Shown here: positions 6,469 through 20,654 of the stretch, piece by piece
Layout of the letters: each line of letters opens with the position of its first letter
Numbering within the stretch: position 1 is the stretch's first letter
NCBI RefSeq assembly: GCF_900094805.1
Contig: NZ_FMAT01000003.1
Span: 186,001-250,000, forward strand
Length of the DNA stretch: 64,000 nucleotides
DNA from: Arthrobacter sp. NIO-1057
GTDB taxonomy: Bacteria > Actinomycetota > Actinomycetes > Actinomycetales > Micrococcaceae
Direction: 5' to 3'
Made by a program: the position numbers and the translations under genes
The notes under the pieces: model-generated
What the model was told of the DNA's origin: nothing
The model's database searches: none
What the model saw: the letters and a program-made list of their open reading frames with translations, nothing else

Positions 6469-7254
6469 TCAGCTTGGCCAGCGAACAGTTAGCCCGCCAT
6501 CAACAATTAATTGTTGTCCAGTCATATATGCTGAATCATCGCTAGTGAGGAAGCGAATGGTTCGGGCTGCCTCATCAACAGTTCCGACTCTTCCCCACGG
6601 AATGATGTTGCCGGCCGCGTCCAGTCCCGCGTCGCCAAGCGAATTCTTTGCGTCCATGGATTGTGGGCTACGGATGAGACCCGGGATTACTGAATTGACT
6701 CGAATCTTCCGTGGAGCAAGCTCGACTGCTAGCGAGCGACAAAGTCCGAGAACTCCGGATTTTGCTGCGGCGTAATGAGCATGTTCTTCCCATCCATAAA
6801 CCCCACCAGCGATGGATGATGTTGCAACCATCGCACCGCCATCAGTCATCTTGGAAGAAGCAGCTCTGAACACGCGCATTACCCCAGTAAGATCCACATC
6901 TAGCATGTCTGACCAAGCTTTATCTTCCATCTGTCCCAGTGGATCCCGTCGGAGAATGCCAGCAGCCGCTACTGCAATATCAAGGCGTCCAAAGTGCTTG
7001 ATAGCGGCGTCGGCGAGTCCATTGCAATCTTCTGTACTTCGCACATCGGCGGCAACAGCAATGCACTCGCCACCTATATCCGCTACTGCCTTTACCGTTT
7101 CCTGAGCATCATGCGGATCTTGTGGAAAATAGTTGACCACGCTGCGTGCACCTGCTCTGGCATAAGCAATTGCTAAGGCCTGTCCAATCCCGCTTGCTCC
7201 TCCGGAAATTAGCGCAACTTTACCTTCTAGGCCGTCGTCACGTTGTACCGTCAT
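6469..7254 (-). CDS. Short-chain dehydrogenase/reductase (SDR)
   Basis: A 261-residue classical SDR with cofactor motif GGASGIGQALA. The strand-2 end reads VVNYFP and lacks the usual acidic residue, which leans towards NADP(H). The catalytic site is SSIAGG then HYAAAKSG (Ser, Tyr, Lys). The start codon overlaps the stop of the upstream MFS transporter (TAATG), so the two are translationally coupled. The protein shares the SDR core with its downstream neighbour but is not a recent duplicate. Substrate unknown. Confidence 0.87.
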   Translation of the reverse strand: MTVQRDDGLEGKVALISGGASGIGQALAIAYARAGARSVVNYFPQDPHDAQETVKAVADIGGECIAVAADVRSTEDCNGLADAAIKHFGRLDIAVAAAGILRRDPLGQMEDKAWSDMLDVDLTGVMRVFRAASSKMTDGGAMVATSSIAGGVYGWEEHAHYAAAKSGVLGLCRSLAVELAPRKIRVNSVIPGLIRSPQSMDAKNSLGDAGLDAAGNIIPWGRVGTVDEAARTIRFLTSDDSAYMTGQQLIVDGGLTVRWPS

Positions 7255-8609
7255 TATGCCGTTACTCCTTCATTTACGAGGTCCGAGGAATCCCTGTCCT
7301 CGGATTCAACTTTCTTGGTTCCAAGCATGCATAGGGCTGAGAAGAGCAGTCCCAGTGTTCCACTACAGATCGCGGCGGCAGTCATGCTAAATCCTGAATA
7401 GAGAACGAGGCTAAGTACGCCTGAACCCGCGATTGCACCTACCGGGGCCATTACGTGAGCAACGTTCGCGCCAGTACCTCGAATGTGAGCTGGGAACGAC
7501 TCTCCCATGTAATAAAGCAACGCTGAATAAGGTCCCGTCAGGAAGAACAAGGTTAGACCATACATTGCGATAACGAACCATGTACTGCCAGGAATAAGCA
7601 GCATGCACAGACTTGAAGCGGCACCCGCAAACCAGCCGAATATCACTGTGGATCGACGACCGATCCGGTCTCCCAGCCAGCCATGGAAAAGGTAGCCTAT
7701 GAACCCGACAGCGTTGGCACCAATGAGAATTACGAGCGCATTTTCAAACGAAACGCCCTTGGCCCCCACCAATACGGTGGTACCCAGAACCGAAAAAACC
7801 TGAATGCCGATCCAGTTAAAGAACCAGGCAAGGGAAAGGAAAATCGTATGTCTACGTAGCCCCTTGGAAAATACTTCTTTGAGGCCACCTTTAGATTTTT
7901 CGCCTAGCTCTAGTCCATGTTCGTCGACAAGCGCCTTGGCCCCATCCAGGTCCCCAACAGCTTGTCGTCGTTTCGCCTCTTTGATGGCCGCGAAGGTTGG
8001 CGATTCTGGCAGGCGCGTGGCCCACAGCGCGACAGCTACAGCCGCGGTTCCAGCCACCACAAAGCTCCAGCGCCACCCTATAACGGGCAACAGGAGCGCT
8101 GACATGGTAGCTGCGACGAGAGCCCCGATCGGATATCCAGCTTGAACAACAGAAAAGAAGAACCCTTTGTTCTTAACATCCTTGTAGATCTCGCTGAGAT
8201 AAACGGCGTTCACCACTTCCTCTGACAGGGATAAACCCGTCACGGAACGAATGATCACAAATGCCACGGCTCCGCCGGCTAATCCGGTCACACCCGAAGC
8301 TATGCCGCCACCGATCATAAGAATGACCAAGGCATTTCGACGGCCCAACTTATCGATGATGGGGCCAACGGCGAGAGAAACAAGAAATACGCCTGCCTGA
8401 GCAATGGTGTTTATCGTCGTGGATTGCGCTGTGCTCCAACCGAAGTCCTCCGCAATCAGTGGCAGCAAAGTGCCAAAAAGCGTGAAGTCATAGACTGAAG
8501 CTACCCAGGCCACGAAACAGACAATCGAAACGTTACGGATCATTTTCGGTGTCACGGCAACGTCCCATGGGGCGACAGGACCGCGAACGTTGGTACTGGA
8601 ATCGGACAT
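7254..8609 (-). CDS. MFS transporter, metabolite:H+ symporter type
   Basis: A 451-residue major facilitator with about twelve membrane helices. The start at 8609 is preferred because AAGGAA lies just upstream and longer versions would run into the preceding gene. The first helix reads VASVYDFTLFGTLLPLIA, followed by the loop motif GPIIDKLGRRNALV between helices 2 and 3, typical of the metabolite symporter families for organic acids and aromatic compounds. It sits between hydrolases and dehydrogenases in one operon, so it is the likely uptake step for the compound degraded. Substrate not determinable from sequence. Confidence 0.85.
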   Translation of the reverse strand: MSDSSTNVRGPVAPWDVAVTPKMIRNVSIVCFVAWVASVYDFTLFGTLLPLIAEDFGWSTAQSTTINTIAQAGVFLVSLAVGPIIDKLGRRNALVILMIGGGIASGVTGLAGGAVAFVIIRSVTGLSLSEEVVNAVYLSEIYKDVKNKGFFFSVVQAGYPIGALVAATMSALLLPVIGWRWSFVVAGTAAVAVALWATRLPESPTFAAIKEAKRRQAVGDLDGAKALVDEHGLELGEKSKGGLKEVFSKGLRRHTIFLSLAWFFNWIGIQVFSVLGTTVLVGAKGVSFENALVILIGANAVGFIGYLFHGWLGDRIGRRSTVIFGWFAGAASSLCMLLIPGSTWFVIAMYGLTLFFLTGPYSALLYYMGESFPAHIRGTGANVAHVMAPVGAIAGSGVLSLVLYSGFSMTAAAICSGTLGLLFSALCMLGTKKVESEDRDSSDLVNEGVTA

Positions 8610-8637
8610 GATTTTCCTTAGGTCTAGATGCGAAGGG

Positions 8638-9525
8638 TTATCCCGCGGAGCGCGGTGATCGTTTTGCGAAGTCGCGTGCAACATCTTCCATGAAGGAGAA
8701 TTCGACACCATCGTGGCTTTGCATGTGATCAAATAGCCGTTCTAGCATCAGCAAGTTCTGTGGTCGCCCAGAAACATCTGGATGGATGGTAATCGGGAAT
8801 ACCGCGTAATCCTTTTCCCGGTAGACCCAGTCAAATTGGTCTTTCCACAACTGTTCAACGTCACGGGGCGAGACGAATCCGTGGCTATTTGGGCTCGACT
8901 TGATGAACATCATGGGAGGAAGGTCATCCAAGTACCAGGACGCCGGAATCTCAATGAGATCGGTTTCTTCCCCACGCACCAATGGCTTCATCCAGTCTCT
9001 GGCTGAGGCGGCGTCGTAATCGATCTTCGTCCACGAATCACCCACACGTACGTAATACGGAGTGTGATCATCGTGCATCAGAGAATGGTCGTAAAGAAAA
9101 CCACGTTCCAACAGGATCTCGTTAGTCACCTTTGAAAATTCCCACCACGGTGCGACATATCCAACTGGCTTCTTACCTGAACGGCGCTCGATGAGATCAG
9201 TGCAGTAGTCGAGAATCTCAGTTTCCTGAGTCCGGGTCATCGCAATCGGATTTTCGTGCGAATATCCGTGGACACCGATTTCATGCCCAGCGGCTACAAC
9301 CTGCTCAAACTGCTCTGGAAAGGTTTCAATTGAGTGTCCTGGCCAAAACCAAGTCACTGGAATGTCGCGTCGTTGCGCCAGTTGAAGCAGGCGTGGGACG
9401 CCGACTTCTCCCGCGAACATGCCGCGTGAAATGTCGCCTGGCGAGTCTTCGCCACCGTAGGAGCCGAGCCATCCTCCTACTGCGTCAACATCGATACCGA
9501 CAGATACATAGATCTTCTTGGACAT
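8638..9525 (-). CDS. Polysaccharide-deacetylase-fold hydrolase of the HpPgdA / PuuE group
   Basis: A 295-residue NodB-fold metal hydrolase. D14 (GIDVDAV) and H86, H90 (HGYSH) sit where Helicobacter pylori PgdA (HP0310) has its metal ligands. Several blocks also recall that protein, including [24 protein letters not shown] and [10 protein letters not shown]. The subgroup also contains allantoinase-like PuuE and bacterial cyclic-imide hydrolases and acts on ring amides rather than classic polysaccharides. It has no signal peptide, so a cytoplasmic small-molecule substrate is likely. The start is fixed by AAAGGAAAG before ATG 9525. It lies downstream of an asparaginase; together they could open a ring amide and release ammonia (inference). 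Confidence 0.85.
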
Positions 9526-9542
9526 TTTCTTTCCTTTCTTAT

Positions 9543-10547
9543 TCAGCGATAGCTGCTGAATAGTTCCTTGAATTCGAAAACCGAAACTTCTTGAGTAATG
9601 AGGCAAGCCGCCAATATTCGCGCTTGGAACGGGCTAAGAACTCCAGCGCTTACTGCTCCTGCGGCAATCAAATCCACACCACCGCCATTGCCATAGATTG
9701 GAACCACTGGTCCAGATGGTGCCCTGCTAGCTAAAACAACTGGCACTCCCATGTCAGTCAGGTGCATGACCGCTTCAACATAACCAGGACCTGCGTTCCC
9801 AACGCCTGTACCCGCCAAGACGACTGCATTCGCACCGCCACGTGCAGCTTTGATCAATTCACCAGAATCAGAACCGGGATAGGCGAAATGGACGTCAATT
9901 CGGACTGAACCAAAGCCATTGGCAGGTAAGGCCAAAGTCGAGCGTCGGTCAGGATTAGCGACCATCTCCAGTTTGTTGTCATGGAACGTTGCCACCGTTG
10001 CTCCGCCTGAGAACGGCTGACTAGCTGTGGTGTGAGACTTTCGTACGCCTCTTGCCGACTGAACTACACCGTCAAAGCACACCAGCGCGCCCATACTGCT
10101 CACCCTTGGATCGGTTGCTGCCAAGATCGCCTGTCTGAGATTTCGCGGACCATCTGTATCCGCATGCTCTGCTGAACGCTGCGCACCAGTAAAAATAACT
10201 GCTTTAGAACCGTCGTTGACAAGCTCACTTAGAAACGCCGTTTCTTCCATGGTGTCAGTGCCATGAGTTACTACCACCGCGTTGATGTGCGGATCCTTGA
10301 TCCGGTTCTGTATTTGATCGACGATCATCAAGATCTGACTCATGTCCAAGGCGTAGCTACCGGTTAGCAGGAGGTCCTCCGACGAGACTTCCAGGTCACC
10401 CTCTACGGATGTCACCCCAATGATGTCCGCGATGCCAACCGAAGCGACAGCCCCGGAAGTCGAATCGTCGAGATCATTTGAACGACTCGCACTTTCAGGC
10501 TTAGAGGCAATCGTCCCTCCGGTACCGATGATGTGAACTCTCGTCAA
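9543..10547 (-). CDS. Asparaginase-family amidohydrolase
   Basis: A 334-residue type I/II asparaginase. The start is a TTG at 10547, supported by AGGGA eight bases upstream and by the immediate N-terminal motif [10 protein letters not shown] (nucleophile T12). The second active-site block is [13 protein letters not shown] (T97, D98) and a Lys follows at about 115. The family hydrolyses L-asparagine and sometimes related half-amides such as succinamate. It is the first gene of a minus-strand operon and lies next to a palindromic operator and the divergent LacI-type regulator. In this setting it may be a specialised amidase rather than housekeeping asparaginase. Confidence 0.88.
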
Positions 10548-10585
10548 TTCGTTTTCCCTCAATTTCTTTGCTTTGTCGACAACTA

Positions 10586-10612
10586 CACAAACGATTGCCA
10601 CAAACGTTTGTG
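10586..10612. promoter_or_regulatory. LacI-family operator between the asparaginase operon and its regulator
   Basis: A perfect 14-bp palindrome with a central CG, CACAAACGTTTGTG, occupies 10599-10612. A matching left half-site, CACAAACG, lies at 10586-10593. The central CG and dyad are the hallmark of LacI/GalR-family operators. The site is about 50 bases from the asparaginase start and 130 from the regulator start, so one bound repressor could control both directions. Confidence 0.75.
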
Positions 10613-10739
10613 TTGTGTCGTAGAACACCATAAGTGACGGGGCTTACTTGGCGCAAGGGAAAATTTTCATAAAGTAGACTGGCAACGCAATGACACAAAG
10701 ACCAAAGTCGTCTTTGACCGCAGGAAAGGCGGTGAGCAC

Positions 10740-11744
10740 GTGGCCAGACGAAGCGCAGTAACACTCAAGGAGTTAGCTCAGGCGCTAGAACTGAGCCCTT
10801 CGACGGTCTCCCGCGTACTCAATGATCCATCTGGTATCGACTCTCGCTGGGCTTCGCCCGAAACGAACCAAAAGATTTATGACCTCGCTACTGAGCTGGG
10901 ATACGTCAAGAATCAGTACGCCGCTTCATTAAGAACTGCTAAATCTCTCCTGATCGGCGTCGTGGTTCCAAGACTTCAGGACTACGTGCTCGCCACCATG
11001 TATGAAGGAATTGACGAAGCTGCACTCGAACACGGTTACGCCGCGGTCGTCGCAAATTCTCTAGACCAACCCGCCACCCACGACCTGCGTGTCCGTAAAT
11101 TCTTGGATCGCAGAATCGACGGACTCATCCTTGGCGACACTCCATTTGATGGGGCGACGTTGAAGTCTCTAGATAAAGAAAAAGTACCATTTGTCCTGGT
11201 CAACCGCAGATCTCCAGGACATTTATCTGTCACGTGCAACGACCAAATGGGCGGGCGTCTCGTGGGTGAACACTTCGCGGAGTTTGGTTCAAAGAAAATT
11301 TTTCTACTCGCTGGTGATCACCGAATGTCCACGTCGATTGATCGCACAACAGGCTTCATCGAAGCTCTAGCAGAACAGGGAATTCATCTTCCTGTCAGCC
11401 ACATCGCTTACGGTGGATTCGATACGTCTAGTGGCGAAAAAGCCACTCGTGATCTGCTCGATGCACACGGCATTCCGGAAGCAATATTCGCTGTCAACGA
11501 TTTCGCCGCCATTGGCGCTTTAGGTGTTCTACGCGAGCGCGGTCTTAAGGTTCCGGAAGATGTGAAGGTAGTTGGATATAACGACACTCCCCTTGCCAGC
11601 GGAGTTGGCCTGACTTCCGTGCATTCGCCGATGCATGAGATTGGGCGCAGGGGGTTTGACCTACTTTTGAAGAACATTCAAGGCGAAGAATGCGAGAGCG
11701 TCCAGCTTGATACAAATCTCGTGATTCGTTCAACGTCGCGGTAA
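10740..11744 (+). CDS. LacI/GalR-family transcriptional regulator
   Basis: A 334-residue regulator. The N-terminal HTH (VTLKELAQALELSPSTVSRVLN, about residues 7-28) and hinge region are followed by a periplasmic-binding-protein-like effector domain (about 65-330), with a conserved segment VKVVGYNDTPLASG. The start is GTG at 10740 behind a GGAAAGGCGG stretch. It diverges from the asparaginase-to-SDR operon with a palindromic operator between them, so it is the probable local repressor, induced by the substrate or an intermediate. Confidence 0.92.
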   Translation: MARRSAVTLKELAQALELSPSTVSRVLNDPSGIDSRWASPETNQKIYDLATELGYVKNQYAASLRTAKSLLIGVVVPRLQDYVLATMYEGIDEAALEHGYAAVVANSLDQPATHDLRVRKFLDRRIDGLILGDTPFDGATLKSLDKEKVPFVLVNRRSPGHLSVTCNDQMGGRLVGEHFAEFGSKKIFLLAGDHRMSTSIDRTTGFIEALAEQGIHLPVSHIAYGGFDTSSGEKATRDLLDAHGIPEAIFAVNDFAAIGALGVLRERGLKVPEDVKVVGYNDTPLASGVGLTSVHSPMHEIGRRGFDLLLKNIQGEECESVQLDTNLVIRSTSR

Positions 11745-12142: not shown

Positions 12143-13744
12143 TTACTTCTGCCACGGGCGAGGCCCGTCAGCATCAAGCATGATCGATAGTGCCTGCGGC
12201 ATGACCTCAGCCCGGAAGAATGTGGATTCTCCGGCGTAGTCACCATCCAACTGACAGGCCACCGGCTGATCTGCTCGAATCTCAATGACCTGACCTTGCT
12301 GATAGCTCAGCGACTTCGCGTCGGTGCCTAGGACAATTCCCCTGGCTAAGGAAGCTAGTTCGCGAGCTCCTGTGGGAGAAGCAATCATGGCGTCAATCTT
12401 TCCATCCGTAGGGATGGCGGAAGGGATCAAATTGATTCCTCCCATCAAGCGGCCGACATTGCCAATAAGTGTCATGATCGAAGAATGATGTTGAACCGGT
12501 TGGTCATCGATGGTGAGCGTACATTCAAAGGGCGTGAGACTGAATTGTTGAGCTGCAGCCACCACATAAGCGCCGGCTTTGATGGTCTTTTTCAACTCTG
12601 GATTGGTGTTGCCCATAATCTTGGCATCAAAGCCTAAACCACCCATGACAGCACAGACCGACTCACCTGCGTCTGTGCTGCAACGAATCAGGTCAATGGG
12701 TACCGGCTGCCCAGCCAACGCCGCACGGATGGCTTCACTCTCATCAAGCGAAGCCCCCAAGTTTCTCGCGAGCAGGTTACCGGTTCCTGCTGGAATGAGC
12801 GCCACGGGTATCCCCCGGTCTGCCAATTCCTGGCACACAACGCGCACCGTGCCGTCACCACCGGCCACAATGACTACGTCCACCTTGGCATCGATTGCCT
12901 GGTGCGACATCTTGACCCCGGGGTCTTCACGTTCGGTTTCTAACCACAAAGGCGGCTTCCACCCTGCAGCTTGTAACTCGTACTCCACACGTCGTCTGAA
13001 CAGCGCAAAGTCCAATACCTTGGTGGGGTTGTAAATTACCGCAGCACGCTTGTCGCTTTGTTCAACGGGTAGGCCCAGCCCGGCCCACCCTTGAAGTATC
13101 GGACCTACCCCAGTAACCACAAGGACGCCGCTGGCCCACGTGATTCCCAACAGGACTCCGCCAATGAGCTGGCCTGTTGTTTGGGTACGCATGATCCATT
13201 GATCGGCTAAGACCATGAGAATCAATAAGGCAGCAACAAGTCGCGAACGCAACGCTGAACTAGTTGTTAGTCGTTGTGCATGGCCCAGGGTCGCCAACAC
13301 CCAGGCAAGTACAGACACCGCCACCATATGGGCCGAGGGATAGCCGGAGATTTGATAGGCCAGCGAATCTTCAAAGGGCGAAGCTGGACGCGGCTGATTG
13401 GTAATGAACTGAATCCCAGCGGTTACCGGAATAACGAAGGCTACCGCTCCCAGTGCTCCGGCCAACCGTCGCATCCGGCGCCGCAAGGTCCACAATGCCA
13501 TCGCCAGAATGAAAGCAAATACCAGCGCCGGATGAGTCAGCAGCGCAAACGCTTCGGCAATCTGTCCTGCGAAGCTCCGCGCATTTATCCACGGCGCCAG
13601 CGTCAGTTCATCAAGATCTTCTAATCCCCAGACTGTAGAGAGCAGAGTCCATCCAGTGAACAAGAAGATGAACGTCGTGAAGAATCGGCCCTGCGCCAGT
13701 GACGCCAAATCAAAACGACCGAGAGGTTTCAAGATTCGCGTCAT
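12143..13744 (-). CDS. PAP2-like membrane domain fused to a diacylglycerol kinase catalytic domain
   Basis: A 533-residue two-domain protein. Residues ~20-215 form a PAP2-like membrane unit with NQPRP (116-120) and GYPSAH (134-139). Residues ~230-530 form a DAGK/LCB5-type lipid kinase with GGDGT at 295-299, ALIPAGTGNLLARNLG, and a C-terminal GDYAGES segment. The third PAP2 motif is degenerate: six residues after R186, where the catalytic His is expected, there is Q192, and the following Asp is Gly. The Lys of the first motif is also replaced (Q112). The kinase half looks intact. Lipid phosphorylation is likely; lipid-phosphate phosphatase activity is doubtful. Confidence 0.85.
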   Translation of the reverse strand: MTRILKPLGRFDLASLAQGRFFTTFIFLFTGWTLLSTVWGLEDLDELTLAPWINARSFAGQIAEAFALLTHPALVFAFILAMALWTLRRRMRRLAGALGAVAFVIPVTAGIQFITNQPRPASPFEDSLAYQISGYPSAHMVAVSVLAWVLATLGHAQRLTTSSALRSRLVAALLILMVLADQWIMRTQTTGQLIGGVLLGITWASGVLVVTGVGPILQGWAGLGLPVEQSDKRAAVIYNPTKVLDFALFRRRVEYELQAAGWKPPLWLETEREDPGVKMSHQAIDAKVDVVIVAGGDGTVRVVCQELADRGIPVALIPAGTGNLLARNLGASLDESEAIRAALAGQPVPIDLIRCSTDAGESVCAVMGGLGFDAKIMGNTNPELKKTIKAGAYVVAAAQQFSLTPFECTLTIDDQPVQHHSSIMTLIGNVGRLMGGINLIPSAIPTDGKIDAMIASPTGARELASLARGIVLGTDAKSLSYQQGQVIEIRADQPVACQLDGDYAGESTFFRAEVMPQALSIMLDADGPRPWQK

Positions 13745-13807: not shown

Positions 13808-15220
13808 TTATCCCAGACGGATCTCATCAATACCGTCAAGATCCCACTGCCCGTCATCCCATTTCAAATTTTTGGCCAGTGGCAATTGATGAGAGGCACT
13901 TTCAATAATGTGCATCAGGTATCCCCCGGTATTTGGGAACGCCACGATGTCGCCCTTGGCTACGCCTTGCGGGAATTCAAAGCGGCGGCGCAAGATGAGT
14001 TCTTCTTCAATGCAATAAGCACCTACGAGGAAGCCGCTGTACGGGGCGAGCTGTCTTGAATGTCTACCCGCCGTCTTGACCAGCAGTGGGTCAACCAGGA
14101 AATCTGCAGCCGTTGAACGGCACTGGGTGCGATTCATATGAAGACCCACAAGGCTTACGCCATCACTGCGTTCCTTGGTGAACGCCACCTGGGACAGCGT
14201 GAGCCCACAGCCATCGAGCAGTGAGCGCCCCGGTTCACACCTCAGCTGAATCCCGCGTTCATTGAGCATCTCGGCTACGCTTTGAGATCCATCAGCTCCC
14301 TTCGTAGTCAGGATCTGTTCTAGCCACGGACCACGAATCAACCGCTGGTGATACGGATATAGGGCCTTGCTGGCCTGCGGGCCTGTGGCACCAAGCCGGT
14401 CAGCTTTCCAGGTCAAAGATTCGTCCCCCTCGGGCAGCTCGGCGAGCGCCTCCCAGAATCCTCTCCACTGGATTGAATCATCAAGATAAGACATGGGAAT
14501 ACCGCCGCCCATATCTACAAACTTCACCGAATGACCTTGCTGACGCAGCGCATCAACTAATTCCAGTGACTCCTGCAGCACTGCTGCGCGCTGCCCACCG
14601 TCGTAGCCGTTGAGGTGGAAGTGCACACCGATGACTTCGAGCGCCTTTTGATTGGTGACGCCACCCAAAAACTCCAGCCAACGCTCTGCGCTCAGTCCGA
14701 ATCTGGTGGGTGGGATCTGCGGATCAGCTGAAGCCAGTCGCAGGGCAACCCGGGCTGGAGTGTTCGTAGCGTTAGCGATCTGAAGTAGATCATCTACTTC
14801 ATCTTCATTGTCTAGACTCAGCACCACATTGTTCTGGACTGCCAGCTCAAGTAGGGCTTGGGACTTCACCGCAGCGGTGACAATCAATGAATCGGAGCTG
14901 ATTCCACGCTTCAGACACTGATCTAATTCGTGGAAGCTTGCTACATCCACTCCGCAGCCTTCGGCAAAAGCTTTGTCGATAGCACCAAGGGTCTTATTGG
15001 CCTTGCGCGCTAGATAGATTTGGAAGTCAACCTCATATTCAGCCGCTGCCTCACGTAGCTCGGTGATGTTCCGTGCCATCGATGAGAAGTTGTGAACGTT
15101 TAGTGGTGACCCATACTTGGTGAGTAGTTCTTGGCAGAGTTTAGGATTCTCAACAAGTTCTGTCATCCATGGTTCCAGACGGGCCGTCAGAGGTAGGGTT
15201 CCGTGCATCAGCGGTGGCAT
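13808..15220 (-). CDS. Y4yA-type fold-III PLP-dependent decarboxylase
   Basis: A 470-residue enzyme of the alanine-racemase-fold decarboxylase group (ornithine, diaminopimelate and siderophore-pathway decarboxylases such as SbnH). The PLP lysine is K73 in ARKANKT. Other signs are GVHFHLNGYDGG, DMGGGIPMSY (phosphate-binding glycines) and RCEPGRSLLDGCG. The start at 15220 overlaps the stop of the flavoprotein gene by one base (TGATG). It is the last gene of a three-gene operon with an SbnA-like synthase and a flavoprotein. The expected role is decarboxylation of an amino-acid-derived intermediate; the substrate is unknown. Confidence 0.8.
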   Translation of the reverse strand: MPPLMHGTLPLTARLEPWMTELVENPKLCQELLTKYGSPLNVHNFSSMARNITELREAAAEYEVDFQIYLARKANKTLGAIDKAFAEGCGVDVASFHELDQCLKRGISSDSLIVTAAVKSQALLELAVQNNVVLSLDNEDEVDDLLQIANATNTPARVALRLASADPQIPPTRFGLSAERWLEFLGGVTNQKALEVIGVHFHLNGYDGGQRAAVLQESLELVDALRQQGHSVKFVDMGGGIPMSYLDDSIQWRGFWEALAELPEGDESLTWKADRLGATGPQASKALYPYHQRLIRGPWLEQILTTKGADGSQSVAEMLNERGIQLRCEPGRSLLDGCGLTLSQVAFTKERSDGVSLVGLHMNRTQCRSTAADFLVDPLLVKTAGRHSRQLAPYSGFLVGAYCIEEELILRRRFEFPQGVAKGDIVAFPNTGGYLMHIIESASHQLPLAKNLKWDDGQWDLDGIDEIRLG

Positions 15221-16842
15221 CAATAAGCTACTTTCTGGCTTTGAACGGTCACTTGCGTTGCAATGCGCTTGACCCATTCTCGGTACTCGGTATGCAAAGT
15301 TCGGTTCAAGGTGTCATGACCCAAGGTAGGGTCCTCCGTCGGACGCCCCAGAGCGCTCAACGACTCATTGCGTTGGCCCTGTGAATCGATGCAGGTTCCG
15401 TCAGTGTCGGTGAGCAGTCCGCGCTCGCCGGACCTAATCATGATTTCTCCTGCCACCAACAGGCCATCAATGAGGGAGTTCGCTGGTTTGCCGTGAGGAG
15501 CTGCGGCGGTGAGCACGCCCGCCGCGGCAGTCACAGAGTCTATTTCAACGGTGTCTGTTCTTTGATCTTCGCCTTGATCAGTACTAGCTGTACTTGCTAC
15601 GGATTGTTGGTGACGCAGGATCCCCGCGTCGTGCAGGGCTAGCAGTTTTTGTGCTGTGGGCTCTGGTGGGCCAAAGGCCATACGTTCAAGGTTGCTTGCT
15701 GCTAGGTTAAATTCTCCTCGCTCGGTGTGGCTCCAGTTATATCTAGAGAGCGCACGGACCAGTTCTGAATATAGCTTTGACCAAGTTACCGCCCACACCC
15801 ATTCATGGGTTCCGCTTACTAGTCCACGGTTAGCTTCGAGGCTATAGCGTAATTGTTCAAAAGGTCGCTCATATTCTGAGAATTGTGCGGATCTACCAGT
15901 ACATACGGTGTCCCAGAGCGATTCCTTGGTGGCCGGTACGCCGCTGAAATCAGCGATGTGCTTCGCGCAGTCCAGCAGGATGCTCCACATTTTCCTAGTA
16001 TTAGGCGTTGAAGAGCCCGCCCAGGCACGCAGTTGAGTTTGGTAAATGCCCAGAACGCTGTGCAGGTCTTCGCCAATGTCTCTTGGCTTTGGTGTCATCG
16101 CAATACCCTGGCGAGAAACCATCGTGATCAGCGCGGGCTCGTTTCCGCTGGGCAAATATCGCAGCGCACCCCCCGCATCATCGGCAACAGGTTCCCAACG
16201 GCCACCGCGCCCTTCGGTCAAGACCATGACCACGTCATAGGCTGTCAGTGCGGCACCGCGAATCTTGACCCTACTTCCAGCTGGTACTTGCGCGATGGCT
16301 TCAGGGGCTTGTTCCACGCTCAGCGCTGCTGCGGGAATTGTTGAAACCGGTTGCTCTTCATTCTTGTAGCCTGCCAACCCGTGGCCGGTAGCAAGGACAA
16401 CTTCATCATAGAGTTCAGCACCAGAAGTCGTTGATACTGCCCACTGTTCGCCTTGCCTTTGAACCCGCTGAACCACCAGCGGTCGATGGGATACCGATAG
16501 CTCACCGTGTTTGGTCAACAGTTCAAATTGCTCGCTGAGGTATGCGCCGACCTCGGCCCGTGGTGCAAAGACGTCTTGGATTTTATCCGAAGCATGCGGC
16601 TGTCCGTATTGATCAAACGTCTTTTCGCACAGACTAGAAGACGCGTCGATTATGCGCGAGTTGACGTTCAGCCTCAGTTCTTTGGGCTGCATGGTATTCC
16701 ATACCCGTCCGGCTCCCGGCGGGAAGGGGTCATAAACATCAACCTGAACAGTTTGGCCTTCGTTGTCGCTGAGCACATCGTTGAGTTCCAACAGAGCAAA
16801 CAGGCACTTTGGGCCGCCACCGACCATCGCCATGCGGATCAT
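15220..16842 (-). CDS. FAD/NAD(P)-binding protein of the middle position in an SbnA-Y4yA operon
   Basis: A 540-residue protein with an N-terminal dinucleotide-binding motif (MVGGGPKCLFALLEL), a second segment VVLATGHGLAGY typical of FAD/NAD(P)-binding_9 family proteins, and RVKIRGAALTAYDVVMVLTE. The start at 16842 gives an ATGA overlap with the upstream synthase gene. No close functional homologue is recognised. By position it could oxidise the condensation product of the SbnA-like enzyme, doing the job SbnB does in staphyloferrin B synthesis, but it is unrelated to SbnB, so this is only a hypothesis. Confidence 0.7.
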   Translation of the reverse strand: MIRMAMVGGGPKCLFALLELNDVLSDNEGQTVQVDVYDPFPPGAGRVWNTMQPKELRLNVNSRIIDASSSLCEKTFDQYGQPHASDKIQDVFAPRAEVGAYLSEQFELLTKHGELSVSHRPLVVQRVQRQGEQWAVSTTSGAELYDEVVLATGHGLAGYKNEEQPVSTIPAAALSVEQAPEAIAQVPAGSRVKIRGAALTAYDVVMVLTEGRGGRWEPVADDAGGALRYLPSGNEPALITMVSRQGIAMTPKPRDIGEDLHSVLGIYQTQLRAWAGSSTPNTRKMWSILLDCAKHIADFSGVPATKESLWDTVCTGRSAQFSEYERPFEQLRYSLEANRGLVSGTHEWVWAVTWSKLYSELVRALSRYNWSHTERGEFNLAASNLERMAFGPPEPTAQKLLALHDAGILRHQQSVASTASTDQGEDQRTDTVEIDSVTAAAGVLTAAAPHGKPANSLIDGLLVAGEIMIRSGERGLLTDTDGTCIDSQGQRNESLSALGRPTEDPTLGHDTLNRTLHTEYREWVKRIATQVTVQSQKVAY

Positions 16843-17837
16843 CGTCCAGCGCAAACTTCTAACTCAGACAAGTTCGCAGACTGAGGTGACTCACCAAGAG
16901 TTTTTTGCACCCATTCATCGTTGTAAACGGTGTGTAGATAGGGAACCCCGGAATCGTGCACCAAGAAGGCAACCCGTGAGCCTTGGGGAATGTCTGGGAG
17001 CATTTTCCCCATGGCCGCGACAATTGCTCCGGTAGAGGCTCCGGCCAAGATGCCTTCCCGCTTGGCCAGTAACCGGCAGCCACGAACCATCTCAATTTCA
17101 GGGATACGGAAAACTTCGTCGGGCTGCACTTCTAGGGAAAGATCAGGGACGATTCCTGCGCCCAGACCGGGCAGGCGCCGTTCTGCCGATTGGCCACCAA
17201 AGAGCACTGAGCCAAGTGCATCCACCGCAATCAGTTTTGTTTTGAGCTGATGTTCTCGCACGTACTTTTGGCATCCGAGAATCGTGCCCGTGGTACTGGT
17301 GGCGACAAAGAGCATATCTAGATCTCCTCCCATCGCCTCCATAATTTCTGGCATGGTCGTAGAGTAGTGAGCCTCAGGGTTGCGCGCGGATCCATACTGG
17401 TTGGTGGTCACCGCACCAGGGTTTTCGGACAGCAGTTGCGCGACCCGTTTGCGGCGCGCGGCTAGCCTGTTGCCATCGGGTGGATCCATGACAAGATCTA
17501 CGGTTGCTCCGTAGGCGCGCATGATGTCTAGCGCTGATTTGTTGGCGTTTTCATCAACCACGGCAACAAAGTTGATATCTCGCACGATGCATTGCCGGGC
17601 CAGGGAAATCCCCAAGTTACCTGAGGTTGATTCCACCACCATTCCGCCAGGCTTGAGCTCACCTGTTTCTAAGAACGCAGTGATCAGAGATTCAGCAGTG
17701 CGTTCCTTGGTGCTGCCAGAAAGTTGCAGTGAATCCAGCTTGGCGAAAAGCTCGATTTCACTTGAATCGAATAGCCTCTCAAGTTTCACAATCGGTGAAT
17801 TGAAGGGTGTTAAAGCACCGGTAACTTCCATAGTCAC
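16839..17837 (-). CDS. SbnA-like PLP-dependent synthase (cysteine synthase family)
   Basis: A 332-residue fold-II PLP enzyme. The PLP lysine is K44 in SGSTKERTA and the phosphate/substrate loop is ESTSGNLGISLA (N74). It resembles Staphylococcus SbnA more than CysK in blocks such as VDALGSVLFGG, LPGLGAGIVPD and FAxGST-like LAGASTGAI. SbnA joins O-phosphoserine and glutamate on the way to 2,3-diaminopropionate. It is the first gene of the operon, with flavoprotein and Y4yA-type decarboxylase genes overlapping downstream. A beta-replacement reaction is firmly expected; the SbnA reaction itself is inferred. Confidence 0.8.
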   Translation of the reverse strand: MTMEVTGALTPFNSPIVKLERLFDSSEIELFAKLDSLQLSGSTKERTAESLITAFLETGELKPGGMVVESTSGNLGISLARQCIVRDINFVAVVDENANKSALDIMRAYGATVDLVMDPPDGNRLAARRKRVAQLLSENPGAVTTNQYGSARNPEAHYSTTMPEIMEAMGGDLDMLFVATSTTGTILGCQKYVREHQLKTKLIAVDALGSVLFGGQSAERRLPGLGAGIVPDLSLEVQPDEVFRIPEIEMVRGCRLLAKREGILAGASTGAIVAAMGKMLPDIPQGSRVAFLVHDSGVPYLHTVYNDEWVQKTLGESPQSANLSELEVCAGR

Positions 17838-18000
17838 TACTCACATTCTTACGACGGATAACACTGCTGACGGTCATTTCCAGGTCAGTAGCTATGAGCT
17901 TGACTCGTCCCGTTTTTCGCAAGTCTATGTGTAGAAGTGAAGCGTTGGCTACCGGTGCCGCGAATTCAGATGTAAGCCCCAGACCGCGCCCTCTTGCCGC

Positions 18001-19383
18001 TCAGCTGACGTTCTGAGATTCCTCACTTACCAGGTGCCCAGACGGTGCAGTGTGGCCCTGAACTCGGTTTTTCCATGACAGAGCCAGGTAGAGCAGGAAG
18101 CTGACAAAGAAGCATGGAACCGTGGCGCCAATTGGGCTGGGGAAGATATAGGTCAGCAGGTAGGCGACAACCGCACCGGCCACCCACACGCCAACGGCAA
18201 TCGGGTTCGCTCCGTTGCGGTACCAGTAGGCACCACCGCTGTGGCGCAGGATGTCACGCGTGTAGCGCGAACGCTTAAGCAGGTAGTAGTCCACAATCAT
18301 GATGGCGAAGACCGGAACGAAAAATGCACCGATGAGTGTCAAGAAATCAGTGAACTGATCCAGTAGTGCTAGCCAGGTAGCTCCGAGGATAGATATTGCA
18401 CCAACTACCAAAGCTGTGGCCAAGAACGGCAACTTACGTTCGGGACGGGAGTTGACCACCGAGGTGATCATTCCGTAGACGGCCATTGTATTGGTAGCCA
18501 TTACGGACAAGAAGATGGCAATAGCCAGTGGGGCACCAAAGGCTGCAACAAGAATTGTTGGGTCAAACTCTGTTGCTTGGCCACCGGAGAGGATGACGTA
18601 CCCAATAGCAGTGGCGCCAAGGATCATGGCCAAGACGGTAGAAAGCGTATAGCCAATGCCTGAACCGACAATGCTGGCACGAGTATTGCGAGCCATACGG
18701 TTGATATCCGCCGAAAGCACGGTCCATGAAATCGCCGTGGCAATCACGATATCCAGAACGATGAACGGTGTGTATCCAAGGGAGGCATCAACCGGAATCG
18801 CAGCAAACTCTGCAGGATTATATTCACCGAAGGCCATGGCAAAGACGTAGGCCATGATGGCCAAGATCAAGACAGCAAGCCAGGGTTCAACTTTCGAAAT
18901 TCCTTCATGCCCAAACAGTGCCAGAGTCACGACAAAGACTTGGCAGATCACGGAGAATAGGACCGGATTGCTGAACCCGGTCAGCGAATCAACGAGGTAG
19001 TTGACGGTGACGCCTGCCAGCATGGCCTGCACCCAGCTCCAGCCCATCAGCACGATGACATTGGCTGCCACCGGCAGCAAGCTACCGCGAGCACCAAAGG
19101 CGCCACGTGTGATGGCCATGGTGGGCAGCCCGGTACGAGTGCCGATGTTTCCTACCAGAGCCAAGATGACGGCACCGATTAGCGTGCCGACAACAATCAT
19201 CACCAGTGCAAGTGAGAAGTTCAGTCCGGGCACAAAGAATGTGCCGGTCAAGAGCGTGGTCACCACGAGGTTGGCTGCTAGCCAGATCATGCCAATACGG
19301 CCGGTGCCCAGCTGTCCGCGAATCGGGCCGGAGCTTTCGGCACCGGCTTCTAGCTTCTGTTCAAATTTGCGGTACAGATTCAT
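18001..19383 (-). CDS. NCS1-family purine/pyrimidine-type permease (CodB-like)
   Basis: A 460-residue transporter with about twelve membrane helices of the cytosine/purine/allantoin/hydantoin permease family. Landmarks include the early glycine-rich GTLIGAVILALVGNIGTRTG, WSWVQAMLAGVTVNY and DINRMARNTR. It is coupled by an ATGA overlap to an upstream NTF2-like gene. No cytosine deaminase lies next to it, so the substrate could be another nucleobase-like ring or thiamine precursor. It belongs to a minus-strand pair divergent from the XRE-cupin operon. Confidence 0.85.
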   Translation of the reverse strand: MNLYRKFEQKLEAGAESSGPIRGQLGTGRIGMIWLAANLVVTTLLTGTFFVPGLNFSLALVMIVVGTLIGAVILALVGNIGTRTGLPTMAITRGAFGARGSLLPVAANVIVLMGWSWVQAMLAGVTVNYLVDSLTGFSNPVLFSVICQVFVVTLALFGHEGISKVEPWLAVLILAIMAYVFAMAFGEYNPAEFAAIPVDASLGYTPFIVLDIVIATAISWTVLSADINRMARNTRASIVGSGIGYTLSTVLAMILGATAIGYVILSGGQATEFDPTILVAAFGAPLAIAIFLSVMATNTMAVYGMITSVVNSRPERKLPFLATALVVGAISILGATWLALLDQFTDFLTLIGAFFVPVFAIMIVDYYLLKRSRYTRDILRHSGGAYWYRNGANPIAVGVWVAGAVVAYLLTYIFPSPIGATVPCFFVSFLLYLALSWKNRVQGHTAPSGHLVSEESQNVS

Positions 19384-19829
19384 GCGGTCTCACCGGTGGC
19401 TTCAGTTGCCGCTTGCTCCGGCACGGTTGAAAGGTGCTCGTGGATTGCAATGAGTGAACCGTCTGCTTCGAGGCGGAAAACGATAGTTTCACGTTCTACG
19501 TAAGAGTCAATGGTGTAGTTCTCTGGATCATTTCCACTGCGCGTTTGTGTTGCCACGGTGTGGCTGAAGACTGCACCGCCAGCGAAAACATGAACGAGTT
19601 GGTCAGTGGACTGGCAACCGGTAACCTGCCATCCATCAGCTAGCCAGCTGCCCCAAAGCTTTTCGTAGCTAGCGCGATCATCTAAGCGGGATGCTTCGGG
19701 ATGAAAAATGAAGGATGCGTCTGGTGCGAAGTGTGAAAAGTATTCTTCAGTGTTTGTCGTGCCAAATGCTTCTACGATCTTGGCGGCGGCGGCCAGTACG
19801 TCGCTTTCGGTAGGTGCAACTGTGCTCAA
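19380..19829 (-). CDS. NTF2-like (SnoaL/DUF4440-type) small protein coupled to the NCS1 permease
   Basis: A 149-residue protein with a cone-shaped NTF2-like fold signature: AAAKIVEAFGTTNTEEYFSHF near the N-terminus, FHPEASRLDDRASYEKLW, and a C-terminal strand ending IAIHEHLSTVPE. The TTG start at 19829 is chosen because GGGAG lies five bases upstream; the frame stays open further but without a ribosome site. It is the first gene of a two-gene unit with the permease (ATGA overlap). Related proteins sit beside amidases and ring-cleavage genes, so a helper or enzyme role in use of the imported compound is plausible but unproven. Confidence 0.7.
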   Translation of the reverse strand: MSTVAPTESDVLAAAAKIVEAFGTTNTEEYFSHFAPDASFIFHPEASRLDDRASYEKLWGSWLADGWQVTGCQSTDQLVHVFAGGAVFSHTVATQTRSGNDPENYTIDSYVERETIVFRLEADGSLIAIHEHLSTVPEQAATEATGETA

Positions 19830-20017
19830 CGGTTCTCCCAAGGCTGAGGTCCGGATTCGGACGCTTCTAGGTAGGCATATGGCGTGAGGTGGATTACCTA
19901 TATGCATTTTTTGTTTACCCTAAGTGATCAATTGGTACCGGTCAATGAATTTCGCTCATATGACAGGTGCCCTATTACCCCGAAGTTACGGTCATTCCGG
20001 ACACTAAATATGGGCTT

Positions 20018-20044
20018 TGCACTTTTAGTGCAGTATGATGCACT
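20018..20044. promoter_or_regulatory. Overlapping TGCACT/AGTGCA inverted repeats over a likely leaderless promoter
   Basis: Three TGCACT half-sites in alternating orientation occur at 20018-20023, 20027-20032 (as AGTGCA) and 20039-20044, forming two overlapping inverted repeats (3-base and 6-base spacers). A TATGAT -10-like box at 20034-20039 lies inside the second repeat and places transcription start almost on the ATG at 20046. A leaderless mRNA repressed by its own product is the simple reading. Confidence 0.55.
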
Positions 20045-20045
20045 C

Positions 20046-20654
20046 ATGGAGATCAACGCCGAACGGCTTGCGCAAACCATCGGTACGCGAGTAAAAAACG
20101 AACGCAAAAAGCACGAATGGACGCTGGATCAGCTCGCTGAGCATGCCGGGGTCAGCCGCCGCATGCTCATCAACGTTGAGCAAGGAACAGCCAACCCCAG
20201 CGTCAGCATTCTGCTCAAGATTTCTGATGCGCTGGGGCTAGGACTGCCCGCCTTGGTCGAACCACCGGAAGCACGCCATTCTAATGTGACGCGGGCAGGC
20301 GAAGGCGCCGTCTTGTGGAACGGTGAGAATGGCGGCCGAGGAATTCTGGTGGCTGGCACCCAAGCCCCTGAAGTACTTGAGCTATGGGACTGGAATTTAG
20401 CTTCCGGCGAGCGCCACGAGAGCAAAGCCCACGCTGCAGGAACCCGCGAACTTCTGCACCTCCTTAAAGGCTCTATCACCGTAGTAGTTGATGGTGAATC
20501 CCATGAGCTCAAAGCCGGTGATGCCATGTCCTTTGACGGGGACACCATCCACTCTTACTCAAATATTCACAAGACCACCGCCACATTCAGCCTGTGCGTA
20601 TTCGAACCAGGTGTGGGCCACACACATAAGACGGAGAACAGCAATGACGAATAG
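20046..20654 (+). CDS. XRE-family regulator with C-terminal cupin domain
   Basis: A 202-residue regulator. The HTH_XRE domain is at about residues 8-65 (LDQLAEHAGVSRRMLINVEQG, PSVSILLKISDALG) and the cupin effector domain at about 110-195 (TRELLHLLKGSITVVVDGE, AGDAMSFDGDTIHSY). The start at 20046 fits the family N-terminus; no Shine-Dalgarno sequence is visible, and a -10-like box sits just upstream. It overlaps the downstream B3/B4 gene by 11 bases. Proteins of this design usually sense a small ligand and control the adjoining transporter genes, here the EamA exporter. Confidence 0.88.
   Translation: MEINAERLAQTIGTRVKNERKKHEWTLDQLAEHAGVSRRMLINVEQGTANPSVSILLKISDALGLGLPALVEPPEARHSNVTRAGEGAVLWNGENGGRGILVAGTQAPEVLELWDWNLASGERHESKAHAAGTRELLHLLKGSITVVVDGESHELKAGDAMSFDGDTIHSYSNIHKTTATFSLCVFEPGVGHTHKTENSNDE

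Follow-up and report, generated by a model that had tools for sequence, protein, structure and literature searches.

The window analysed here is a stretch of 64,000 nucleotides from Arthrobacter sp. NIO-1057 (contig NZ_FMAT01000003.1, 186,001-250,000), and our subject is a compact run of three genes at positions 13808-17837, all on the minus strand, which we call syn, fad and dec. An earlier reading of the letters, the original prediction, had seen here a possible metallophore or diamino-acid pathway. The three genes, with their predicted products, are as follows.

16839..17831, minus strand: syn, an SbnA-like beta-replacement synthase dependent on pyridoxal 5′-phosphate (PLP), 330 amino acids from ATG 17831, family PF00291

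15220..16842, minus strand: fad, a homologue of the FzmM-like class B flavin N-monooxygenases, 540 amino acids from ATG 16842, family PF13454

13808..15220, minus strand: dec, a Y4yA-family fold-III PLP decarboxylase, 470 amino acids from ATG 15220, family PF02784

The longest open reading frames (ORFs) begin at GTG 17837, TTG 16854 and ATG 15277. For syn the alternative start at ATG 17831 is the more likely, and for fad and dec the relatives start at ATG 16842 and ATG 15220; a near-identical relative of fad (L026) carries a stop codon two codons ahead of the position that matches ATG 16842. With starts set in this way syn and fad overlap by 4 bases (ATGA) and fad and dec by 1 base (TAATG), in agreement with the overlaps of one to four bases and the 540-residue middle protein of the original prediction. 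The K44 and ESTSGNLG loop that it named in the first gene are also there when counted from GTG 17837, the lysine being K42 from ATG 17831.

Syn scores 345.1 bits against the SbnA model TIGR03945 and 177-190 bits against the CysK/CysKM models, and its best match in the PDB is SbnA itself (5d84), with O-ureidoserine synthase also on the match list. All 15 aligned synthases from modules of this kind match the SbnA model, at best with E 1.3e-107 compared to 2.8e-66 for the best cysteine-synthase model, and a Sulfitobacter member exceeds the curated cut-off of the SbnA model at 358.0 bits. In SbnA, R132, Y152 and S185 select O-phosphoserine (PMC12414870). The equivalents of these three residues, and of K42, are invariant in 68 of 68 module synthases, a set made up of the window and 67 of the 71 complete loci described below (three fusions and L074 were left out). 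The genome holds further synthase paralogues, and in the alignments inspected the Tyr and Ser of the triad are Phe and Gly in one of them (L137); the full triad is also lacking in the synthases of L044, L045, L141 and L143. As the O-phosphoserine triad is kept throughout the module, syn is not an ordinary cysteine synthase, the finding that the original prediction had named as one that would refute it. Syn is predicted to work like SbnA, and the amino acid that it adds is one we infer.

The middle protein belongs to a family in which PF13454 is found in every one of 58 aligned sequences. Searched singly against solved structures it has FzmM (8cp2) as its sole significant match (E 1.5e-12, residues 7-253), and the profile of the family covers chain residues 3-568 of 8cp2 at E 3.6e-61. 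An AlphaFold2 model built from the 58 sequences (mean predicted local distance difference test score 91.9) superposes on 8cp2 with Z 29.5 over 495 residues (root-mean-square deviation 3.2, 21% identity), and the flavin adenine dinucleotide (FAD), nicotinamide adenine dinucleotide phosphate (NADP) and helical substrate domains of FzmM are all covered by fad in one chain. The next structural matches lie at about Z 21 over some 300 residues (Bdr, 21.2 over 298), and N-hydroxylases of the PvdA type reach Z 19 over 360. FzmM is an aspartate N-hydroxylase that acts on the free amino acid, with Asn62 placed over the flavin, and it holds aspartate by R13, R276, N413, R416 and R577, with R266, R409 and R412 as further residues in the binding of sulfate (PMC10404684). 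Asn62 corresponds to N59 of fad, which is Asn in 58/58. The position of R13 is Lys in 36, Arg in 15, a gap in four and another residue in three; that of R577 is Arg in 55, supposing no gap beyond the aligned end; and that of R266 is Lys in 56 and Arg in two. We regard it as likely, from fold and conserved residues, that fad works like an N-oxygenase of the FzmM type. The original prediction had the three enzymes condense, oxidise and decarboxylate; the enzyme classes fit this scheme, and since the middle protein is an FzmM homologue, oxidation in this case probably means N-oxygenation.

The third protein has the fold of the type III PLP enzymes, with Z 31.9 to 4xg1 and 28.7 to SbnH (6kni). SbnH is one of many fold-III matches of dec and not the best of them, the fold being at least as close to diaminopimelate (DAP) and ornithine decarboxylases. 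The likening of dec to SbnH and Y4yA in the original prediction is thus borne out as to fold III and family, Y4yA being the name carried by relatives of dec in annotated plasmids, and not as to any special nearness to SbnH; a fold search that cannot separate SbnH from other fold-III decarboxylases gives no information on the substrate. In an alignment of 43 rows K73, G238-G240, E329-R332 (EPGR) and C403 are invariant, and C403 is aligned with the Cys of DAP decarboxylase. We take these to be the PLP lysine, the GGG loop, the EPGR motif and the catalytic Cys, respectively. The assignment of dec as a fold-III PLP decarboxylase is well supported by fold and invariant residues, and its activity is predicted.

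The three genes recur together. Scanning the GTDB genomes with motifs from the dec alignment, which derive from module members, gave 165 relatives, of which the best 80 were kept; the more conserved dec alignment succeeded in this where fad alone, as query against genome contigs, gave no matches. In 71 of these 80 loci syn, fad and dec lie on one strand in the same order, distributed over four phyla, judged by record titles, as 56 Actinomycetota, 9 Planctomycetota, 3 Sulfitobacter and 3 Bacteroidota. This count includes three fad-dec fusions and L074, in which the end of fad lies in another frame, and the gaps between genes run from -17 to 176 bases with script-chosen start codons, fusions aside. 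The remaining loci include three that end at a contig edge within fad (L055, L095, L098), one that ends at dec (L076) and one with fad in two frames (L092). In a smaller set all 15 loci keep the order and the strand; in 14 the gaps range from -19 to +14 bases, and in L026 the matches overlap. A Pseudosulfitobacter match that was opened (28% identity) has no syn-fad-dec arrangement. Within the genus of the source organism 10 of 18 genomes, its own included, hold the module, not all of them in the same genomic surroundings, and it is present on Tsukamurella and Sulfitobacter plasmids. The original prediction had suspected a recurring module and had named rare co-occurrence of the three genes as what would speak against it; the comparison of neighbourhoods sustains the suspicion.

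Fad and dec are joined in a single ORF in Brachybacterium (L081, 1082 codons), Kocuria (L088, 1086 codons) and Propioniciclava (L093, 941 codons; all with script-chosen starts), and fusion in three genera suggests that the two enzymes carry out successive steps. The pairwise distances of the three proteins correlate over the 68 sets with r of 0.87 to 0.90, which in part reflects common descent of the hosts, and fad is the fastest-changing of the three with a median identity of 0.33 (syn 0.46, dec 0.51).

The same linkage is seen, free of motif bias, in 296 genomes drawn evenly from the phylum. Fad is found at E 1e-60 or better in four genomes (the source genome, G317, G162 and G167), and in all of these save G167 syn and dec stand beside it. 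A Y4yA match occurs in 11 of the 296. The three with the module score highest, at 727.6 bits in the source genome, 582.4 in G317 and 343.8 plus 223 in two pieces in G162, and the eight lower-scoring ones (at most 326.7 bits) all lack fad at that threshold. The module is therefore uncommon yet tightly linked. In the open-access literature searched we found no publication on such a module, in which the chemistry of an SbnA-like synthase and a Y4yA decarboxylase is combined with a homologue of the flavin N-hydroxylases as third enzyme.

Decarboxylases of the Y4yA family also occur in other clusters, and we compared 15 of these, made up of eight annotated plasmid regions (Mycobacterium avium, M. 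intracellulare, Agrobacterium vitis, A. tumefaciens, Aureimonas, Bradyrhizobium and two Sinorhizobium) and seven regions from the even draw probed with reference proteins; one unannotated Streptomyces plasmid match and some further matches of the even draw were left out. A cysteine-synthase-like gene lies near Y4yA in 15 of 15, on the M. intracellulare plasmid about 2.7 kb away and on the opposite strand. Ten have a different oxidoreductase from that of the module, seven carrying a gene like ornithine cyclodeaminase (OCD) and three an opine dehydrogenase together with IucA/IucC, while five have no recognised oxidoreductase. The three loci with opine dehydrogenase, from Bradyrhizobium and Sinorhizobium, agree with the statement of the original prediction that a rhizobial Y4yA locus carries a cysteine-synthase-like gene. 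A multidrug and toxic compound extrusion (MATE) gene is present in six of the seven OCD clusters (L044, L045, L144, L150, L152, L153), and the combination of OCD and MATE is absent from the seven genes scanned around the module of the window; among the four plasmid loci with OCD, Y4yA and cysteine synthase, MATE is present in three and an iron ATP-binding cassette (ABC) transporter in two. In a tree of 53 Y4yA proteins those of the module form one clade, with four solitary planctomycete proteins nested inside (100/99), and the others fall into an OCD clade (100/99), a clade with opine dehydrogenase and a synthetase of siderophores made independently (NIS) of nonribosomal peptide synthetase (NRPS) (100/100) and a cysteine-synthase-only clade (92/92). 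As the tree sorts by cluster partner, the partner follows the clade of the decarboxylase. In the synthase tree the module synthases lie on one side of a branch (92/84), and those of the OCD clusters split into two groups.

Two side observations concern these clusters. On the M. avium plasmid a second cysteine-synthase-like gene with a major facilitator superfamily (MFS) gene lies 3-4 kb past the OCD-Y4yA-MATE set (L044:17568-20128). Four regions (L148:7591-9818, L149:6265-8687, L151:6696-9051, L154:7295-9606) show a further variant, Y4yA next to a distantly related cysteine-synthase-like gene, and with the probes used no OCD, opine dehydrogenase or flavoprotein of the module was found in them.

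We propose a model in which syn, fad and dec make up a self-contained pathway of three steps, in that order, to a small N-oxygenated diamine; the enzyme classes of the three proteins are well supported, whereas the substrates, the order of steps and the product are those we infer, and we hold this outline to be rather probable. In the first step syn would convert O-phosphoserine to aminoacrylate and add an amino acid to it, most likely glutamate, giving a 2,3-diaminopropionate conjugate of the kind of N-(1-amino-1-carboxyl-2-ethyl)-glutamic acid (ACEGA). In the second step fad, with NADPH and O2, would N-oxygenate this conjugate. As an option, fad, standing in the position of SbnB, may cleave the C-N bond in an oxidative reaction that passes through a nitrone and sets free an N-hydroxylated diaminopropionate. 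In the third step dec would decarboxylate the diaminopropionate part at its alpha carbon and so yield an N-oxygenated derivative of ethylenediamine. Gene order together with the fad-dec fusions suggests that the pathway runs in the same order as the genes. N-hydroxylation of a diaminopropionate unit has a precedent in alanosine, discussed for a different flavoprotein (PMC7347517). The exact chemistry of the three steps as written here is doubtful.

A more specific form of this model is possible, and we put it forward tentatively. The module may be a minimal, transporter-free route of three enzymes, spread over at least four phyla, with a flavin N-hydroxylase that takes the role of SbnB and cleaves the conjugate by iterative N-oxidation to an N-oxygenated ethylenediamine (hydroxylamine, oxime or nitro compound), whose product would stay in the cell or diffuse freely and would not serve in metal capture. 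If the broader outline is true, three genes are enough for an N-oxygenated diamine and the pathway could be rebuilt in one test tube. The module gives a likely class of function to an unnamed branch of FzmM/CreE-like flavoenzymes and to a branch of unexplained Y4yA decarboxylases, and it shows the cysteine-synthase-like gene and Y4yA to be a reusable core to which evolution attaches an OCD-like enzyme, an opine dehydrogenase or a homologue of the flavin N-hydroxylases. The retention of so small a module in four phyla, in some cases on plasmids, points to a product of importance for its hosts.

Several observations weigh against the model and set its limits. Dec stands alone in four of the 80 loci, all planctomycete (L107, L110, L116, L122), and fad was not found in the genomes of L116 and L122; planctomycete K23_9 holds a syn-fad pair (L140) and two copies of dec (L107, L110), at three separate sites of one chromosome. 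Given the motifs derived from the module, the figure of 71 in 80 holds for the closest relatives of dec and not for Y4yA at large. Syn misses the curated TIGR03945 cut-off (349.95) by 4.9 bits, which is why we stop short of calling it an established SbnA. For fad, N-oxygenation is drawn from kinship at about 21% identity, and the substrate site differs: the position of N413 is Pro in 30 of the 58 sequences, Ala in 10, Arg in eight, Ser in five and others in the rest, never Asn, and that of R416 is Val in 38 and Arg in only two. The R412 position is Tyr in 54, the R409 position is Arg in only 23, and R276 of FzmM falls in a stretch of fad that cannot be aligned. The flavin-stacking Trp51 of FzmM is replaced by Tyr in 35 and kept as Trp in 23, the protein of the window among the latter. 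Because two of the five aspartate contacts are lost, aspartate is an unlikely substrate and we do not file fad as an aspartate N-hydroxylase. Finally, near full-length relatives of fad at about 26-31% identity occur outside the module (L035:8276-9913, L147:6880-8670, L036:8214-9800), and no matches to syn or dec were found near them; these are perhaps other N-oxygenases.

An unlikely alternative, though the one that survives best, reverses the first two steps. Here fad, in the way of FzmM and CreE with aspartate, would oxidise an amino acid in free form, and syn would add this N-oxygenated nucleophile, or nitrite or hydroxylamine derived from it, to the aminoacrylate, the resulting beta-N-oxygenated alanine then being decarboxylated. 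The use of a free amino acid by FzmM (PMC10404684) fits such a scheme, and relatives of SbnA can take other nucleophiles, O-ureidoserine synthase being an example. With Lys or Arg at the R13 position in 51 of 58 sequences, Arg at that of R577 in 55 and a basic residue at that of R266 in all 58, a carboxylate could still be held by fad. Against it stand the loss of the N413 and R416 contacts and the nearby change of R412 to Tyr, as well as the gene order and fusions, which place the flavoenzyme next to the decarboxylase. A Pfam scan of the seven neighbouring genes showed no nitrosuccinate lyase of the CreD/FzmL type, and no further family is widely recurrent.

It is quite unlikely that the product is a metallophore, exported, binding iron or zinc and taken up again in the manner of staphyloferrin B or a zincophore of the ethylenediamine-disuccinate (EDDS) type. 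Other Y4yA operons do look metallophore-like, with MATE or iron ABC transporter genes, or, in three, with opine dehydrogenase, NIS and TonB genes, and metal binding by an N-hydroxylated diamine is conceivable. Neither an all-against-all blastp comparison in the 80 loci (E 1e-12) nor a list of same-strand flanking ORFs brought out a fourth conserved gene. The larger clusters of that comparison run antisense to syn, fad and dec and were taken as shadow ORFs, and the most frequent family apart from these, a generic ABC ATPase, occurs in 18 of the 80; exporter, receptor and uptake genes were neither widely recurrent in these loci nor prominent among the flanking ORFs. We scanned up to 87 upstream regions for words like the Fur, Zur and IdeR boxes, and the best matches were no better than the best shuffles: the best IdeR/DmdR-like and Fur-like matches have 7 and 6 mismatches, compared to 5 and 5 in shuffles. 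For the two Zur words the mean number of mismatches is slightly lower than in shuffles, at 6.63 against 6.91 and 6.59 against 6.81, the window having 5 and 4 of 15. The single NIS (PF04183) match of the genome lies on another contig beside ORFs that by eye resemble DesA, DesB and DesC/D, and this locus reads as one of the desferrioxamine type; in it the DesC- and DesD-like parts are apparently fused, by eye, in one ORF of 782 codons (L134:5306-10535). The original prediction was right that the window holds no NIS synthetase. Neither recurring transport genes nor clear iron or zinc boxes came to light, which weighs against its metallophore; we do not retain it, though export could be unlinked.

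Improbable, too, is a plain stand-in for SbnB, in which fad would dehydrogenate ACEGA to diaminopropionate and 2-oxoglutarate with no oxygen added and dec would make ethylenediamine or act on the conjugate. Fad does fill the place held in 10 of the 15 other clusters by the OCD-like and opine-dehydrogenase genes, and, as the original prediction remarked, no SbnB relative is at hand: a gene of the OCD family (SbnB type) is absent among the seven neighbouring genes scanned, and the sole PF02423 match of the genome lies on another contig near ORFs that by eye resemble ammonium transporters. The whole-chain match of fad is nevertheless to an N-hydroxylating monooxygenase, well above that to Bdr, and the catalytic Asn is invariant. 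That an ordinary cysteine synthase, a flavoprotein of housekeeping function and a decarboxylase of the lysine type are neighbours here by chance is hardly credible even with Pfam families as broad as these, being refuted by the shared occurrence, order and strand in 71 of the 80 loci, from four phyla, and opposed by the fad-dec fusions, the O-phosphoserine triad and the presence of other synthase paralogues in the genome.

The immediate surroundings of the module vary. Downstream lies a lipid-kinase gene (DAGK_cat, YegS_C) at 12143-13744, which adjoins the module in part of the genus only and whose N-terminal half has a weak, sub-threshold match to PAP2; upstream, 169 bases away, is an NCS1-type permease. 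Upstream of the module we note one further feature.

17919..17951, minus strand: candidate operon promoter, TAGCCA-18-TAGACTTGC

Its AGCCA and TAG..T.GC are invariant in nine of nine aligned upstream regions of the genus, and the pattern has one match in the genome of 3.54 Mb; a generic scan for promoters and terminators returned no more than in shuffles. In L029, L031 and L032 neither permease nor kinase matches stand beside the module and the promoter element is retained. As it is kept when the context changes, the operon seems to be its own unit.

Further out, the NCS1-type permease, a SnoaL-like protein and a divergent regulator-like ORF (helix-turn-helix by eye) occupy 18001-20654 and are syntenic in part of the genus. 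An asparaginase, a member of the PuuE-like polysaccharide deacetylase family and an MFS transporter stand in a row on the minus strand at 7254-11744, with a divergent LacI-type regulator, and resemble a catabolic operon. In other genomes an MFS-like gene is near the module in eight of 10 Demequina loci, and a gene that looks by eye like a catalase adjoins it on the same strand in three of the 80, on the downstream side in one Sulfitobacter and on the upstream side in two Bacteroidota (L120:11450-13507, L123:4961-7078, L127:4964-7078). It may handle peroxide leaked by the flavoenzyme and is too rare to build on.

Among known systems, staphyloferrin B of Staphylococcus aureus shares with the module a synthase with the O-phosphoserine triad (SbnA), a fold-III decarboxylase (SbnH) and an oxidoreductase between them in pathway logic (SbnB). 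It differs in that SbnB is NAD-dependent while the module has a homologue of the flavin N-hydroxylases, with which no NIS or transport gene recurs. FzmM and CreE share with fad the fold of the whole chain with its helical substrate domain, Asn62 and basic residues at the positions of R266 and, in most sequences, of R13 and (supposing no gap) R577; fad lacks N413 and R416, has Tyr for R412 and partners a synthase and a decarboxylase rather than a nitrosuccinate lyase. L-alanosine of Streptomyces alanosinicus is alike in that its pathway includes a CreE-type enzyme and, presumably, N-hydroxylation of a diaminopropionate unit. It is different in that the diaminopropionate is carrier-bound, the flavoprotein discussed is AlnG, which resembles acyl-CoA dehydrogenases, and the CreE-type AlnM makes nitrite, and the passages on the pathway that are available do not mention a Y4yA decarboxylase (PMC7347517).

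The other Y4yA clusters stand closest in gene content. The rhizobial y4x-like clusters of Bradyrhizobium and Sinorhizobium also have Y4yA adjoining a cysteine-synthase-like gene, and differ in carrying an opine-dehydrogenase-like enzyme, IucA/IucC and a TonB receptor in three of three and an MFS gene in two of three, with a Y4yA clade of their own. Those with OCD (M. avium, Agrobacterium, Aureimonas and three genomes of the draw) have the same plan of a cysteine-synthase-like enzyme, Y4yA and one oxidoreductase with no NIS or NRPS seen alongside; they differ in that the oxidoreductase is OCD-like and not a flavoprotein, MATE is mostly present, the synthases of L044, L045 and L143 lack the full triad and their Y4yA again forms its own clade. 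Those with OCD and MATE are reminiscent of the aes genes of the zincophore [S,S]-EDDS. The biosynthesis of EDDS differs from that by NRPS or NIS and is under Zur control (PMC4993170, PMC9252823).

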